The notes under the pieces were generated by a model. It did not search any database and had not been told where the DNA came from. It saw only the letters and a program-made list of their open reading frames with translations. 30,253 nucleotides of DNA from IMG/VR virus record IMGVR_UViG_3300042463_000571, positions 1 to 30,253 of that record. One strand, written 5' to 3'. Origin of the DNA: a virus. Positions 1 to 5,885 of this stretch are shown here, piece by piece. A program made the translations under genes and the position numbers. Numbering within the stretch: the stretch's first letter is position 1; each line of letters opens with the position of its first letter.

Positions 1-608
1 CCTATCGCTGGTGTTGGAGAAGCGATTGATAATGGCACAGCTGTTCTTCTTTGATTGACTAAAAAGTAATCGTTATCTACTGCACTGTAAATTCCCTGTC
101 TTTCAAGTTCATCAATAAGATATCTGGCAGTCTTTTTTGTAATTGCGTATGCATGAGCACCTTCATGTCCAATTATATCAATAATTTGCTGCGGTGGACC
201 TGCTTTAACATGATTATATTTCTGAGGATCTGTTACCTTATAACCCAATACTACAATTCTGTTTTCTGGAATGTCTATCATTAACGGTTGTAGCATCAAT
301 GCATCATGTTCTAAAACAATACCGACATCTTCTGGCCCGTCTGCTATGTTCTTCCAAATGCTAAAATGACCTGCCGTACAGCACATTGCTTTGTCTGCAG
401 CTGACACATTTTCTGTATAACGATACTCTGAGGTTGGTAAATTCTTAATTCCTGTCTTACCAAAAGCCATTCTACCATCCATTTTATGATAGCCATTAAA
501 GTAAGTCCAGGATAAACCTATCTTATCACAAGAGTCTGAGCAAGTCTTTGCATACTCATTGGAGATAGGATTGTCAATTTTTAAAATGTGAGCTTTAATC
601 GATTGCAT
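1..608 (-). CDS. Glycosyltransferase family 25-like protein (3' end beyond window)
   Basis: The reading frame opens at ATG 608-606 and stays open for 202 residues to the left edge, so the C-terminus is missing. GT25 enzymes (LPS and collagen-type transferases) move a sugar from a nucleotide-sugar donor. Family signs are an N-terminal beta strand (HILKID, 7-12), a conserved CTAGHFSIWK stretch at 77-86 where GT25 proteins have a GC.lSH.. helix, VLEHDAL at 98-104 in place of the EDDA metal/donor motif, and a GHEGAHAYAITKKTARYLI-type segment at 148-165. It starts 3 bp after the stop of the second glycosyltransferase, so it is the fourth gene of a late operon. It may decorate phage or host surface glycans; the acceptor cannot be read from sequence. 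Confidence 0.72.
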   Translation of the reverse strand, partial: MQSIKAHILKIDNPISNEYAKTCSDSCDKIGLSWTYFNGYHKMDGRMAFGKTGIKNLPTSEYRYTENVSAADKAMCCTAGHFSIWKNIADGPEDVGIVLEHDALMLQPLMIDIPENRIVVLGYKVTDPQKYNHVKAGPPQQIIDIIGHEGAHAYAITKKTARYLIDELERQGIYSAVDNDYFLVNQRRTAVPLSIASPTPAI

Positions 609-611
609 AAT

Positions 612-1262
612 TTATATTGCCTTATCATATGAAACACTATTTGCATGACCAGTAGAACCCCACTTGTGATCTGCATATACCTTATCTGGTCCATTATATC
701 TCGTAGCACTGCCATGATAAAATAGTGGAATAAAGTAATGTGATGGCCAAATAGTAAGTTTGTGTTTCCAATTAACAACGTGATCTGCTAAAAATGCATT
801 ACCGGTTGATCTAAATGGTTCTGGGCTTAACTGATGTGGCTGAACTTTGTGTAACGTATCAATAACGTGTTTAACAAATTCATTACCTGGGTTGCAAGCC
901 ATAATAGGTTGAATAAAATTATGGCGGCCTGCTTCATTTTCATAACAAGAGTAGGCATGATCAGATGGTGCTGTAAACAATTCATCGGTATTTTCTAAGC
1001 ATACCATATCAGCTTCTGGCCAAAAGCCACCATTCTCATATAGCAATTCATAACGAATTAAATCTGATACACCTGGCCATTTGCGCGTATTATAATAATG
1101 ATTTATAAGATGTTGGTTGTGCCATTTACGAGCCCTAAGCATCTCATCAGTAAAGATAGAATATTCCCAATCAGGATGCTTTTCTTTCCAAGTATTTAAC
1201 CATGCCATAGGAGCAGGCTTTGGTCCAATCCAAATCTGAGTTAACTTCTTTTCAATATTCAT
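612..1262 (-). CDS. Glycosyltransferase of the GT32 / DXD sugar-binding type
   Basis: This 216-residue protein has the Gly_transf_sug (OCH1-like, GT32) layout: QIWIGPKPAP at 9-18 (family QIWhG.kp.P), W..KHPDWEYSIFTDE at 25-40, and SDLIRYELLYENGGFWPEAD at 66-85. The last segment matches the family core SDxxRyxxLyexGGxYxDxD, except that the first Asp of the DxD metal site is Glu83 and the Tyr is Trp81. Asp85 is kept. ATG 1262-1260 follows GAGAGATTAATT, a usable ribosome site. It lies 2 bp after the FkbM methyltransferase and 3 bp before the GT25-like gene. The conservative Glu could still bind metal. A role in surface glycan modification is inferred from context. Confidence 0.72.
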   Translation of the reverse strand: MNIEKKLTQIWIGPKPAPMAWLNTWKEKHPDWEYSIFTDEMLRARKWHNQHLINHYYNTRKWPGVSDLIRYELLYENGGFWPEADMVCLENTDELFTAPSDHAYSCYENEAGRHNFIQPIMACNPGNEFVKHVIDTLHKVQPHQLSPEPFRSTGNAFLADHVVNWKHKLTIWPSHYFIPLFYHGSATRYNGPDKVYADHKWGSTGHANSVSYDKAI

Positions 1263-1264
1263 AA

Positions 1265-1891
1265 TTAATCTCTCACAAAAATCGCATCCATTGAAGTCTT
1301 TTTAACTAACTTATAACCAATCGATTCTAAGAATTCTCTACCACATTCTCTTTCGGTAATAACAACTGGATTGCATTTTTCAATTAAATTGATAGCACCT
1401 TTTAATGCTTCCGGTTCATAACCTTCAAGGTCAAAATGAATTAGATCGCATTTATCAAGACCTAAGCTATCTATAGTAATCATCATTACTGCGCCAGGAT
1501 TTTCATTTACTGTATACATACCAACGTTATTTTCTTCACCGGGTGCTGTTGGTGAATCAAGACTTACTAATTTTTTAGAAGAGCCTAATGCTGCGTTTTG
1601 GTGATAAATTCCAGGAACAGCACAGTTTCTTTCTAAACAATAATAGTTAACTGGATCTGGTTCAAATGTATATACTCTATCAAAATGATTTTTGTAGAAT
1701 CTTGGATACATGCCACAGCATCCACCGGCTTGTACAACCACATCTCGAGCTTTTACATATTTAAGAAATGATTCACGGTCACGAATCCAATCTTGGAGTG
1801 GCCAATGAAATGCATTAAAATCTCGAATTGGCCATAGAAGCTGATCTACACCTTCTATGTTTACTTTTCTCATAGCTAATTGATTATTCAT
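1265..1891 (-). CDS. FkbM-family SAM-dependent methyltransferase
   Basis: A 208-residue class I methyltransferase. I start it at ATG 1891-1889, which overlaps the upstream TAA as TAATG. A longer reading to 1978 would run 29 residues back into the upstream gene. Motif I is VVVQAGGCCGMYP at 51-63 (FkbM proteins usually have D.GAN.G; here the acidic residue is Gln54 and the Asn is Cys). The acidic end of strand 2 is TFEPDP at 75-80, and DLIHFDLEGYEPEALKGA is the typical FkbM D.EG.E segment. FkbM enzymes O-methylate sugars and other small molecules. Placement between another methyltransferase and two glycosyltransferases suggests a glycan substrate. Confidence 0.8.
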   Translation of the reverse strand: MNNQLAMRKVNIEGVDQLLWPIRDFNAFHWPLQDWIRDRESFLKYVKARDVVVQAGGCCGMYPRFYKNHFDRVYTFEPDPVNYYCLERNCAVPGIYHQNAALGSSKKLVSLDSPTAPGEENNVGMYTVNENPGAVMMITIDSLGLDKCDLIHFDLEGYEPEALKGAINLIEKCNPVVITERECGREFLESIGYKLVKKTSMDAIFVRD

Positions 1892-2451
1892 TATTTCACC
1901 ACATACCAAATAAAATCTTGTTCTTTTTTGTAATCTTGACCAAAATGTTTTTCTACTGCAGATTTTACTGTTGGCCAATGTATATCGTGACCAATTACGT
2001 ATCCACCTTTTTTAACTTTTGGCATCCAATGTATAATGTCTGCATCTACACCTTCAAATGAATGATCTGCATCTATGAATACGAAATCTAAGCTTTCATC
2101 TTCAATTAGCTTTGACGCGTCATTCGTAAATCCACGGTAAATAGTTGCTCTTCCATTTGTAGTATCACAAAATGCTTTTACATCTGCATAATATCTTTCA
2201 TGCTCCCACGCAAGACCATCTTCACCTGGAATATATTTTTGTGGCCCGCCGTTTGATTCTTGCTGTGCATATAAGTCAACACCAAACAAACGAAGATTTT
2301 GACAATTATTAACTAGATGTTTAAAAGTTTCACCATACCATACACCAAGTTCGGCGCCAATGGTCCAGTTGTTTTCTTTTACAAACCGTTCTAATGTAGA
2401 CCATCTATACGTATTTCCGCCGTCATGCCCGCGGTCTTTAATCATTCCCAT
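1891..2451 (-). CDS. Class I SAM methyltransferase (Methyltransf_24-like)
   Basis: A 186-residue protein. GAELGVWYGET at 32-42 is the SAM-binding glycine loop, FGVDLYA at 56-62 carries the acidic residue after strand 2, and LDFVFIDADHSFEGVDADI at 121-139 is diagnostic for the Methyltransf_24 / cephalosporin-hydroxylase-like group, followed by GGYVIGHDIHW. It starts at ATG 2451 with AGGATTAAT upstream. It is the first gene after the late promoter at 2502-2509 and is coupled by TAATG to the FkbM gene. This group methylates sugars, lipids or small metabolites; the substrate is unknown. Confidence 0.75.
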   Translation of the reverse strand: MGMIKDRGHDGGNTYRWSTLERFVKENNWTIGAELGVWYGETFKHLVNNCQNLRLFGVDLYAQQESNGGPQKYIPGEDGLAWEHERYYADVKAFCDTTNGRATIYRGFTNDASKLIEDESLDFVFIDADHSFEGVDADIIHWMPKVKKGGYVIGHDIHWPTVKSAVEKHFGQDYKKEQDFIWYVVK

Positions 2452-2526: not shown

Positions 2527-3825
2527 TTATCTTGTTACTTCTTCCCAGTCCATTGAACCGTGAACTACTTCAGTATTAGTTGATGCTGATACCGCAAGCG
2601 TTAGAGATACAGGTGTACCTGCTAATCCATTTCTTCTTAATTGAAACTTAAACAGAGCATCTCTAAAAATATTTATAGCGGGTGCGTCTTGTGTATTAGA
2701 TGTAAAATATCCGCTAGCTAATATTTTTCCACCTGAAACAGCAGTTCCGGCAAGGGTGTATTCAATTGAAGAATCTGCTCCTGGGTCTGACCAAGAACCT
2801 GTTGTAACGGTTGCGCCTTCAATAATTCTCCATGAGTATATACCCGTGGCTACACCCATTACTGCTACTGCAGTTGGAATAACAACTGCGTCTAATGCAG
2901 TAGATTTAAGTCTGATTGATACAACAGGATAATATGTTCCAGCGGTTGCTAAAGATTTTGGTGCTGTAATAGCGGTGCCGACAGCTCGTTGAGTACCTCT
3001 AAGTTCGTAACCGCCTTCAGATATAACCGTAGAGCATATTTGTTTAAGAGTACTTGATGAACCTGTCGCGCTATTATTTTTTATCTCATAACGAAGTGGA
3101 AGCGAAGCAGTTGTCATGTATGTTGACGTAATACTGTTTGCATGATGAAAACTGTGAGCATGTATAAATTCGCCATTTATTACAAACCCACATCTGACAG
3201 ATCCTACACCTAACCATTCTATGTCGATGAACAAAATATGCGCTTTAGATATATCAAGAGTAAGTCCAGATGGTCCAGCACCATCTAAAGAATCCATGTT
3301 CCAGTCGTTCTTGTGAATTCTAGTATCAACAGCAACTCCACTATTGTAAGATCTTCTTACGAAATATAAGTCACTTCCATCAAGTTCTAGGTATATGCCG
3401 TTTTGTGCACCAAAATATCCAACTCTTTGGCGAAGACCTTCCTTTGCCGTGTTCATCACAAACGTACTAAATGTTTGCAACGATTTACCTGGTTGGTAAG
3501 AAAACACCATAGATGTCTCTCTTATTACTTCAGAGTTTGCAGCAGTATCAACAACAAGATTTACAAGACCTTCGTTTGCAGAAAAAGAAGCTGTTCCGCC
3601 ACCAACAACAGCCGTGTCCCATAGACCGTTATCTCTATAACGATGCGAAGAATCAAACATTGTAAGTGGTGTTGAAACTCTTGCTCGTCCAAAAGCATCA
3701 ACAGCCATTCCTGATGGATTTGCTGGACCAACATTGTTTCCATATTGGTCTGCAAGCATTACTACTTCGAAAAGAGATTTATTATTTTCTAAATAGAGGT
3801 GATTGTTTTTATTAAATTGAGCCAT
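2527..3825 (-). CDS. Virion structural protein conserved in marine T4-like phages (putative)
   Basis: A 432-residue protein beginning MAQFNKNNHLYLE. I chose ATG 3825-3823 because it overlaps the upstream TAA as TAATG, like neighbouring junctions, and AAAGGA lies about 11 nt upstream; an in-frame ATG at 3837 would add MATL but has that AAAGG directly against it. The N-terminal part contains GMAVDAFGRARVSTPLTMFDS, a segment I recognise from large unassigned proteins of marine T4-like phages. The rest is beta-rich, low in Cys, and rich in Ser, Thr, Ala and Gly, as in tail-fibre, head-decoration or adhesin-like virion proteins. It is last in a late operon and is followed by a strong terminator. 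The precise virion location is not visible. Confidence 0.6.
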   Translation of the reverse strand: MAQFNKNNHLYLENNKSLFEVVMLADQYGNNVGPANPSGMAVDAFGRARVSTPLTMFDSSHRYRDNGLWDTAVVGGGTASFSANEGLVNLVVDTAANSEVIRETSMVFSYQPGKSLQTFSTFVMNTAKEGLRQRVGYFGAQNGIYLELDGSDLYFVRRSYNSGVAVDTRIHKNDWNMDSLDGAGPSGLTLDISKAHILFIDIEWLGVGSVRCGFVINGEFIHAHSFHHANSITSTYMTTASLPLRYEIKNNSATGSSSTLKQICSTVISEGGYELRGTQRAVGTAITAPKSLATAGTYYPVVSIRLKSTALDAVVIPTAVAVMGVATGIYSWRIIEGATVTTGSWSDPGADSSIEYTLAGTAVSGGKILASGYFTSNTQDAPAINIFRDALFKFQLRRNGLAGTPVSLTLAVSASTNTEVVHGSMDWEEVTR

Positions 3826-5054
3826 TAGCGTTGCCATCCTTTGATATATTTGTCTGAGAAGTTAGCATTACTAAATCCCAATCTATCTACAAGTTTAACA
3901 GCGTTTTTGCCCATCTTATCGATAGCAACGAATCCTTCTTGTTCTGTTACTTGATATCCGTCAGCGGTCTTTAGGAATGTACCAATAGTTTTTGCTTTAT
4001 CTAGCTTGCCAATAATCATAAGCTTTGCGTCAATAATCAAATTATACAAATCAAACATAGCTACAATTTGTGCAGGCGGAGTTTTTTTGAAATATTCTAA
4101 AGTAGAATCTCTTTTTGCAATCTTACTAGCTTTACCTTTATCGGTCTTAAGCTTATTTGCTTCTGCATCGTAATAATCTGCAATGTATTTTTCTAGATCT
4201 CTTACAAACGTTTTTGTATTTTTAATTCTTTCGCCTTGACGAATTTTAGAATTAACAAATGTTTTTACTTTTACTAGAGTATCTTCGTTGTCTGAAATAC
4301 CATTAAATGTTTCTTTTTTAATGGTATTGAATAATTTTCCAGCTCGAGAAAGAATGTCTGTTACTTCTTTAGTTTCTGATGCTGTAAAGTTTGCTGTGCC
4401 AGATACATCTCTATATAATGCATCTACCGACCAAACGCCTTTTACTTTCTTGAGGCCAGAAGCAATCTCCTCTCCAAAGCTTGCAGACATTTCTTCAAAA
4501 CTTGATCCTCGGTATGTAGTGTGCCAGACCACTCCGATTTTGGATCCGAGTATTTCCGCACCGAGTTTTGAGTTCTTAGGTACCGCATAAACAATCGTAT
4601 TAGGATGGAAAGTAATATGTGGTTCACCTTCAATGTCCACCACTTTAAGATCTTCTTTAGCATATAGAAAGTCACCTTGTACTACGCCTTTAATGCCAAG
4701 TTTTGGTAACTCAGCTAGCGCTAGTTTTAATTTTGTATTCAAATCACCGGAAGTATCAGCATCTACATCAGCTGATGTTTTATATACCTTTGGGTTTTTA
4801 TTAAAGATACCCTTTTTAGCAACAAAGAACTTACCATCTGATGGATCAATGCCAGCAAATACAGCTGGTGCGCCATCCCATTTAACAGTAACGTTTACTT
4901 TTGATTTTGCAGTACCAGCAAGCATGTCGCGTAGCGCGCGCAGGAAGTTAATAGAATCACGAGTTCCATCTACACCTGCATTAAGGATGTTATCCTCGAG
5001 GTGCTCCATGTGAGTGTTCTTAGACTCAACTAAGTAACTTTTAAATGATAACAT
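3825..5054 (-). CDS. Ligase/nucleotidyltransferase-like protein with capsid-targeting-like N-terminus
   Basis: A 409-residue protein of a conserved phage family with no established function that I know of. Several segments resemble covalent nucleotidyltransferases (RNA/DNA ligases): KWDG at 58-61 (motif I KxDG, Lys58 the possible AMP acceptor), FVAKKG at 77-82, QGDFLY at 126-131 (motif III-like), and near the C-terminus EGFVAID at 373-379 with AVKLVDR at 385-391 (motif IV EGxV and motif V KxV). About 240 residues, largely helical and charged, separate motifs III and IV, far more than usual. The N-terminus MLSFKSYLVE fits the T4 capsid-targeting peptide pattern ending in (I/L)xE. It is TAATG-coupled to the nuclease-like gene upstream and the virion gene downstream. 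Catalytic activity is inference. Confidence 0.6.
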   Translation of the reverse strand: MLSFKSYLVESKNTHMEHLEDNILNAGVDGTRDSINFLRALRDMLAGTAKSKVNVTVKWDGAPAVFAGIDPSDGKFFVAKKGIFNKNPKVYKTSADVDADTSGDLNTKLKLALAELPKLGIKGVVQGDFLYAKEDLKVVDIEGEPHITFHPNTIVYAVPKNSKLGAEILGSKIGVVWHTTYRGSSFEEMSASFGEEIASGLKKVKGVWSVDALYRDVSGTANFTASETKEVTDILSRAGKLFNTIKKETFNGISDNEDTLVKVKTFVNSKIRQGERIKNTKTFVRDLEKYIADYYDAEANKLKTDKGKASKIAKRDSTLEYFKKTPPAQIVAMFDLYNLIIDAKLMIIGKLDKAKTIGTFLKTADGYQVTEQEGFVAIDKMGKNAVKLVDRLGFSNANFSDKYIKGWQR

Positions 5055-5851
5055 TACACTTTTCTAACTCGCTGGTGTGTGAACGGGTTTTTCTTTGTAG
5101 TTCCAGGTTTAAGAGAGTACGGACTATTAGCCATAGTTTTTACTTTAACTTCTGGTTGAATTTCATATTGGCTTGTACGAATACCAACTCGCATTCTAAA
5201 ATCGCCTTTACCACCAAACATAGGAACGTCTGCTGCAATACCAAGAGGATCCTCATTGCTAAGTCTATAAAAATCGTCATCAGCTTGTAGATAATAAACT
5301 GGTTCTGCTTTTCCGCCGCCAGCGTAGTGGTCTCTAACAACTTTACCTAAATCTTGGTTTGGTACTGTTACAATATACTGATCAGCTTGCTTGCTCATGT
5401 AAGCTTTCATTTCAGCATGATTTACAGTATCTTTATCAGTTTTTTGAGGACCAACGTTTGTATTTAGCTTAGTTTTTCCTGTAGCTTTTAATATATCTTT
5501 TACGAATTTATCAGCATGCTTATCAAGCATTTTTGCTATATAAACTTTTAACGGTCCTTGTTTTCCTGCAAATGGGCCACTTTTTTCTAGTGATGAAAAC
5601 CATTTTTTGCCATCATATGAAGCTCGAGTATTTCCAAGGTTGTCTGTATGGTTCATTTTTACTTCAATCCACACGTTTTTACCCTTGTGTTTAACAAGAA
5701 CGTCAGAATAAGTAGAATCTACCTTTGGTCTTGAGGCATCATAGCCCAAATCTTTTAATTGATCTGCAACATCTTTTTCATACTTATCTGACGCGACGCT
5801 CATAAGAAGCAACTCCAGTTCTTCACCAATAAAGTCTTTAAAGGATTTCAT
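5054..5851 (-). CDS. PD-(D/E)XK nuclease-like protein with capsid-targeting-like N-terminus
   Basis: A 265-residue protein. Residues 45-66 read D-S-T-Y-S-D50-V-L-V, a turn, then W-I-E63-V-K65-M: the spacing of Asp50 and Glu63-x-Lys65 on two adjacent strands is the PD-(D/E)XK core of restriction-type and Holliday-resolvase-type nucleases. The preceding helix (23-36, KYEKDVADQLKDLG) fits the fold. The C-terminal half is basic and contains no motif I can name. The N-terminus MKSFKDFIGEE closely resembles the T4 internal-protein peptide MKTYQEFIAEA. ATG 5851 lies 27 bp after an exact late promoter, so it is made late, when heads assemble. A packaged or injected nuclease is a reasonable hypothesis. 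DNA-binding without cleavage is the alternative. Confidence 0.6.
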   Translation of the reverse strand: MKSFKDFIGEELELLLMSVASDKYEKDVADQLKDLGYDASRPKVDSTYSDVLVKHKGKNVWIEVKMNHTDNLGNTRASYDGKKWFSSLEKSGPFAGKQGPLKVYIAKMLDKHADKFVKDILKATGKTKLNTNVGPQKTDKDTVNHAEMKAYMSKQADQYIVTVPNQDLGKVVRDHYAGGGKAEPVYYLQADDDFYRLSNEDPLGIAADVPMFGGKGDFRMRVGIRTSQYEIQPEVKVKTMANSPYSLKPGTTKKNPFTHQRVRKV

Positions 5852-5877: not shown

Positions 5878-5885
5878 TATTTATA
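5878..5885 (-). promoter_or_regulatory. T4-type late promoter TATAAATA
   Basis: Exact TATAAATA on the minus strand, 3 bp after the stop of gene 41 and 27 bp before the ATG at 5851. It should drive the nuclease-like, ligase-like and virion genes as one late transcript ending at the hairpin at 2477-2502. Confidence 0.8.

Follow-up and report, generated by a model that had tools for sequence, protein, structure and literature searches.

The window analysed here is the whole 30,253-nucleotide stretch of IMG/VR virus record IMGVR_UViG_3300042463_000571 (positions 1 to 30,253). Its source is a marine T4-like myovirus, and homologues of UvsX, gp32, gp59 and gp41 were found by profile and family matches of the window proteins. 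Two adjacent minus-strand genes encode a nuclease-like protein (265 aa, 5054..5851) and a DUF6267 protein (409 aa, 3825..5054). It is probable that both are late-expressed cargo enzymes, taken into the prohead by a T4-type capsid-targeting peptide and injected with the DNA. Packaging of the pair is likely because the two proteins share a short N-terminal leader (the tag), which keeps the control positions of T4 IPIII and behaves as a detachable module on ~37 unrelated proteins, and because tagged cyanophage enzymes have been detected in virions. Cleavage of both leaders after Glu10 is probable by analogy with T4, and injection of the pair we infer on the same ground. Capsid targeting had been proposed from the letters of the window (the original prediction). 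That proposal was strengthened by each of these lines and by the gp21 homologue and (L/I)xE-type gp23 site of nearly all relatives checked.

A T4-type leader shared by unrelated proteins

The N-termini read MKSFKDFIGEE in the nuclease-like protein and MLSFKSYLVES in DUF6267, and they and the minus-strand positions of both genes agreed with the original prediction. The predicted targeting peptides are MKSFKDFIGE (5822..5851, minus strand; from the pattern, homologues and model confidence) and MLSFKSYLVE (5025..5054, minus strand), each with a predicted cut after Glu10. The capsid-targeting sequence (CTS) of the T4 internal proteins IPI, IPII and IPIII was reportedly described by Mullaney and Black in 1996 and by Repoila in 1994. 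The likeness to it that had been claimed for both proteins was found at the same four conserved positions as in T4 IPIII (4, 7, 8 and 10): each leader has aromatic residues at 4 and 7 and (L/I)8-x-Glu10, as T4-type CTS proteins do. In T4 the first 10 residues of IPIII are enough for packaging, gp21 cuts after L/I-x-E, and mutagenesis of IPIII showed that residues 4 and 7 control targeting and residues 8 and 10 control processing (PMC9026906). Among 32 aligned DUF6267 proteins Glu10 was invariant, and positions 2, 3, 5, 6 and 9 were variable. Homologues of gp21 were present in 12/12 T4-like genomes searched among the relatives, and nearly all of the 12 had an (L/I)xE-type site close to the gp23 N-terminus (for example ILTE-AAPT in S-SZBM1 and FLTE-AEIG in T4).

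A strict tag pattern, M-x(1,3)-[FY]-x2-[FYILM]-[ILVM]-x-E, was counted in the first 127 related IMG/VR loci, where it stood at 195 of 2108 first ATGs versus 14 of 6807 internal Met codons. These loci were fetched via DUF6267 and the nuclease and are enriched for DUF6267; the tagged proteins were therefore also deduplicated, leaving 187 distinct proteins in 44 clusters and ~37 credible mutually unrelated families. Spurious matches, among them short open reading frames (ORFs) in Syn9 and a single match in DLP6, were removed by eye in the family count. The tag occurred in 3.06% of all ORFs and in 0.10% of shuffled N-termini; the internal-Met and shuffle controls together put the chance expectation at 0.1-0.2% and ruled out a chance origin. 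The consensus over one representative per family was M-[KLI]-[ST]-F-K-[QEK]-[FY]-[IL]-[AST]-E-[AS], and among these representatives variability rose sharply directly after the tag Glu. Tag codons for F, E, K, L and S were synonymous mixtures, so selection acts on the peptide and not on the DNA; a DNA-level constraint was thereby ruled out. In T4 the strict pattern was found in IPII and IPIII only. A search of the phage's other genes for the motif, which the original prediction had called for, found these two ORFs alone to be tagged within the window, a 30-kb fragment without head genes, to which the census of the source phage is limited. Across the relatives, the nuclease/DUF6267 pair is part of a much larger tagged repertoire.

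Several observations show that the tag is modular. It is carried by ~37 unrelated families, and DUF6267 exists with and without it: 82 of 88 distinct DUF6267 N-termini were tagged, and the remaining six comprised one whose tag-like start contains ambiguous bases, two near-matches (L124 and HTVC008M) and three from cyanophages. Isolates with a tagged DUF6267 include Methylophilales phage Melnitz, Stenotrophomonas phage DLP6 and phage C48C1. The cyanophage DUF6267 proteins without a tag begin directly with the family core, at the place where cleavage would remove a tag (S-SZBM1 MAKNTHLEHLEDD versus MLSFKSYLVES-KNTHMEHLEDN in the window). In AlphaFold2 models the predicted local distance difference test score (pLDDT) was <50 over residues 1-13 of the nuclease-like protein and 1-14 of DUF6267, with confident bodies. 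Elsewhere in the relatives' genomes, tagged proteins included a zeta-toxin/AAA kinase, an HD_4 hydrolase, CTP-transferase-like proteins and a HAD phosphatase. Two of these are candidate injected effectors of metabolism or growth control, namely the HD_4 hydrolase, which is like alarmone hydrolases (L057:13803-14360), and the zeta-toxin/AAA_33-type kinase (L112:4171-5016).

Tagged proteins of T4 and of cyanophage virions

A tag profile was made from 30 families, with T4 and all cyanophages left out. On T4 (259 ORFs) its top four matches were gp61.1, IPIII, IPII and IPI. The best of these, gp61.1 (MKTFKEFIKED; NC_000866 18966-19130; L229; 54 aa), is uncharacterised and adjoins the primase gene; it is a candidate for a further packaged protein. 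On the cyanophage S-CREM2 (~209 ORFs) the top five matches were the gp154 cytidylyltransferase, the gp14 kinase, the gp6 S-adenosylmethionine (SAM) hydrolase, gp136 and the Cas9-like gp12. The S-CREM2 virion proteome, determined by mass spectrometry, holds 52 of 219 proteins (PMC10665884), and all five profile matches were among them (hypergeometric p = 6.5e-4). Apart from the hypothetical gp136, the matches were exactly the non-structural, non-lysin enzymes of the virion in that study.

Virion-detected cytidylyltransferases of three further cyanophages were also tagged: MKKFSAFLNEA in S-SM1 (T4-GC190), MRFRQFIIEA in S-SZBM1 and MKSFLQFLKEA in S-SCSM1. The kinase reported from S-CRM01 virions was tagged as well. 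Two small tagged S-SZBM1 proteins were absent from its published virion list, so virion detection is incomplete. In S-CREM2 gp12 (L128:7704-10313) the tag was shifted inward to residues 17-27 (LRFASFMAEAA), behind a prefix rich in Arg, Trp and Ser, and S-CRM01 g128 (L142:702-1253) showed the same shift behind such a prefix, VKLSLDSFIKEAA.

Gene order, folds and the cassette beside gp41

On the minus strand the order is the gp41-like helicase gene, TATAAATA, the nuclease-like gene, DUF6267 and a virion structural protein gene. The original prediction held that both enzymes follow an exact late promoter. One T4-type late promoter match, TATAAATA (5878..5885, minus strand), does lie 26 nt upstream of the nuclease ATG; the pair has this one match, not two. 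In the AT-rich window this motif is not rare (6 copies versus 3.84 expected; 17 of 100 shuffles reached 6). In the relatives 24.6% of tagged ORFs had it in the 120 bp before their start, versus 8.8% of untagged ones, and it was upstream of 11 of 37 tagged-family representatives (Fisher p 2.6e-4). The translational coupling that had been described was seen at both junctions, each of which reads TAATG: the nuclease stop overlaps the DUF6267 start at 5052..5056 (5056-5052 on the minus strand), and the second junction, between DUF6267 and the virion protein, lies at 3827-3823 on the minus strand. The virion-protein gene behind the pair was likewise as predicted (phrog_1645, E 2e-142; 2527..3825, minus strand). 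Its start is probably 3825, not 3837, because the family match begins at residue 5, Met5.

The nuclease-like protein had no sequence-level family in Pfam, PHROGs or PDB sequences, and tblastn found no relative of it in named phages. Residues E25, D50, E63 and K65 were invariant in 20 homologues, in the arrangement D-x-hydrophobic ... VWIEVK. The AlphaFold2 model (pLDDT 86) matched HhaI endonuclease best (Z 9.7 over 177 residues), followed by Hjc resolvases (Z ~7); Foldseek alone gave no E below 0.001. On this model the protein is a PD-(D/E)xK nuclease fold with a D...(E)xK active site. It has the D50 ... E63-x-K65 arrangement and the invariant helix Glu25 in common with HhaI and Hjc, and differs from them in its added N-terminal tag and in having no sequence-level family match.

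DUF6267 (PF19782, phrog_455, T4-GC71) is matched over its full length by its own family (E 3e-113), for which the databases give no function, and sequence profile searches returned that family only. Its motif K58-W-D-G, the predicted ligase motif I (4872..4883, minus strand), was invariant at K58, D60 and G61 in the alignment of 32 proteins. The best 50 structural rows for the AlphaFold2 model (pLDDT 84) were RNA/DNA ligases, with Z of 8.3 for Naegleria RNA ligase, 6.9 for T4 Rnl1, 6.6 for Rnl2 and ~6.5 for DNA ligases. Foldseek alone gave no significant match for this model, and its first rows, carbonic anhydrases, were rejected as spurious (TM 0.07). Further candidates for ligase motifs III, IV and V, placed by alignment, were QGD (126-128), EGFV (373-376) and K387, all invariant or nearly so. 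The assignment of the modelled protein to the covalent nucleotidyltransferase/polynucleotide ligase fold is sound despite moderate Z near 8, because the ligase list is consistent and the lysine conserved. With this assignment and the tag on its non-cyanophage branch, the family gains two features beyond its database description. The labels "nuclease" and "nucleotidyltransferase" of the original prediction are thus both supported at the level of fold and motif.

The arrangement gp41 helicase, late-promoter match, cargo and tagged DUF6267 was seen repeatedly in relatives. The slot between gp41 and DUF6267 was filled by many unrelated families, ~10 of which had a conserved D-hydrophobic ... [E/S]-x-K motif, and profile-profile comparison of the cargo families related F12 to cluster 11 (95%) and supported no other pair. 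From this motif it is suggested that most cargo-slot families are PD-(D/E)xK-like nucleases. One relative (L009:987-3764) had two different nuclease-like genes in tandem ahead of DUF6267.

Proposed delivery, alternatives and known systems

In the favoured reading, both enzymes would be synthesised late, and each leader would dock on the scaffold core via Phe4 and Phe/Tyr7. A gp21-type protease would then remove it after Glu10 (Ile/Leu8-x-Glu10). The mature enzymes would stay in the DNA-filled head and exit along with the DNA in the following infection, acting early in the new host before phage gene expression. Docking, cleavage and ejection are all carried over from T4, whose internal proteins are injected with the DNA into the host. 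The gp41-adjacent slot would carry DUF6267 as constant cargo and, before it, an exchangeable cargo, most often nuclease-like. The exchangeable nuclease would attack foreign or host DNA and the ligase-like enzyme would mend or protect nucleic acid; alternatively, the pair may serve counter-defence, as T4 IPI-III do. Roles in meeting host defences or in processing incoming ends had been suggested in the original prediction. We tentatively extend this reading, as a possibility falling somewhat short of an even chance, to a general protein delivery run by marine T4-like phages, in which the peptide has been attached to many unrelated enzymes and the gp41-side cassette supplies a constant tagged ligase-fold enzyme and an exchangeable tagged nuclease as a cut-and-seal pair injected per virion.

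Several points weigh against this reading. An active nuclease beside packed DNA needs explanation: it must be inactive in the head, or the DNA must be protected or modified. T4 heads can carry staphylococcal nuclease, which cuts only once calcium is added (PMC3012670). The search for nuclease homologues relied in part on the tag as a pattern; that for DUF6267 did not. DUF6267 is absent from the S-CREM2 and S-SZBM1 virion lists, which fits its untagged state there and is not positive evidence. The virion-detected proteins are those of cyanophages, and none comes from a carrier of tagged DUF6267 or of this nuclease. The published virion lists come without mapped N-termini, and the S-CREM2 authors warn that some virion enzymes may be carry-over after CsCl purification (PMC10665884). 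Lastly, the nuclease has an in-frame Met17 with GGAG ~9 nt upstream (window 5785-5851, minus strand), so a second, untagged product is possible.

This internal start would matter most if the nuclease were made mainly from Met17, untagged and cytoplasmic, and DUF6267 were packaged without it. Besides the GGAG, an ELLLMS segment kept in several relatives speaks for such a split, which is nevertheless quite improbable: most homologues retain the nuclease tag (F4, F/Y7, (L/I)xE), including some that lack Met17 (L012, L015, L011). It is unlikely, too, that the tag serves solely for docking during assembly of the prohead core, on proteins that help to construct or mature the head instead of being injected as enzymes. 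T4 core proteins are likewise cleaved at (L/I)xE and structural protein genes are among the neighbours of the pair, but the proteins behind the tag are enzymes, and their catalytic motifs are conserved (CTP transferase, HD hydrolase, zeta-like kinase, SAM hydrolase, nuclease). These enzymes are not common to the phages, unlike what is expected of assembly factors, and the T4 internal proteins that have the peptide enter the host by injection and work there. Highly doubtful is a shared N-terminus that serves translation initiation or membrane or replisome association and resembles T4 by convergence. Short amphipathic N-termini are simple, and the tagged pair adjoins a helicase gene; the invariant Glu10, the exact T4 positions, the mixed synonymous codons and the tagged proteins in virions of several phages all argue against convergence.

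Packaging and injection of the pair, the reading preferred here, has precedents. T-even phages have at least ten internal proteins with capsid-targeting peptides, of which IPI-III block GmrSD restriction. The window proteins have in common with T4 IPI-III the 10-residue leader (aromatics at 4 and 7, (I/L)xE at 8-10), predicted late expression and unrelated bodies. The T4 proteins are small GmrSD restriction enzyme inhibitors, whereas the cargo in the window consists of larger enzymes in a conserved slot beside gp41. The virion enzymes of the cyanophages S-CREM2, S-SCSM1, S-SZBM1, S-SM1 and S-CRM01 have the same leader on cytidylyltransferase/NMNAT, SAM hydrolase, kinase and Cas9-like proteins; the DUF6267 of these cyanophages is untagged, unlike that of the window. 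No mention of a targeting peptide was found in the cyanophage virion papers. T4 Alt and the ejection proteins of the giant phage SPN3US are, in the parts of that literature available, likewise enzymes packaged in the head, trimmed by the prohead protease and ejected. Their leaders differ, and those parts describe no short tag shared by a large number of unrelated enzymes. The term "capsid targeting sequence" was found for no marine T4-like phage in the accessible literature. T-even capsid-targeting peptides are already known; the large tagged enzyme repertoire and the nuclease/DUF6267 cassette appear to be new within the literature that could be searched.

The tag gives a sequence rule for carried-in proteins, by which proteins now listed as "hypothetical" in abundant marine phages become, by the hundred, candidate injected effectors. 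It would explain the repeated NMNAT/cytidylyltransferases, kinases, SAM hydrolase and Cas9-like protein in cyanophage virions, a puzzle left by the authors of those studies, and a catalogue of the anti-host and anti-defence functions that ocean viruses exert very early could be drawn up straight from genomes.

Two further tagged proteins (IMG_G002 31513-33642 and IMG_G001 39936-41234) repeat the motif EEVELDE, which also occurs in S-SCSM1 ORF92 (L231:10062-11624), an untagged protein annotated as a virion protein. Each VELDE holds an L-x-E, a potential cut site for a gp21-type protease, as if these proteins were diced inside the head. Downstream of the virion-protein gene on the minus strand (window 3-2451) lie a glycosyltransferase-like gene (612-1262) and two methyltransferase-like genes (1265-1978 and 1891-2451).

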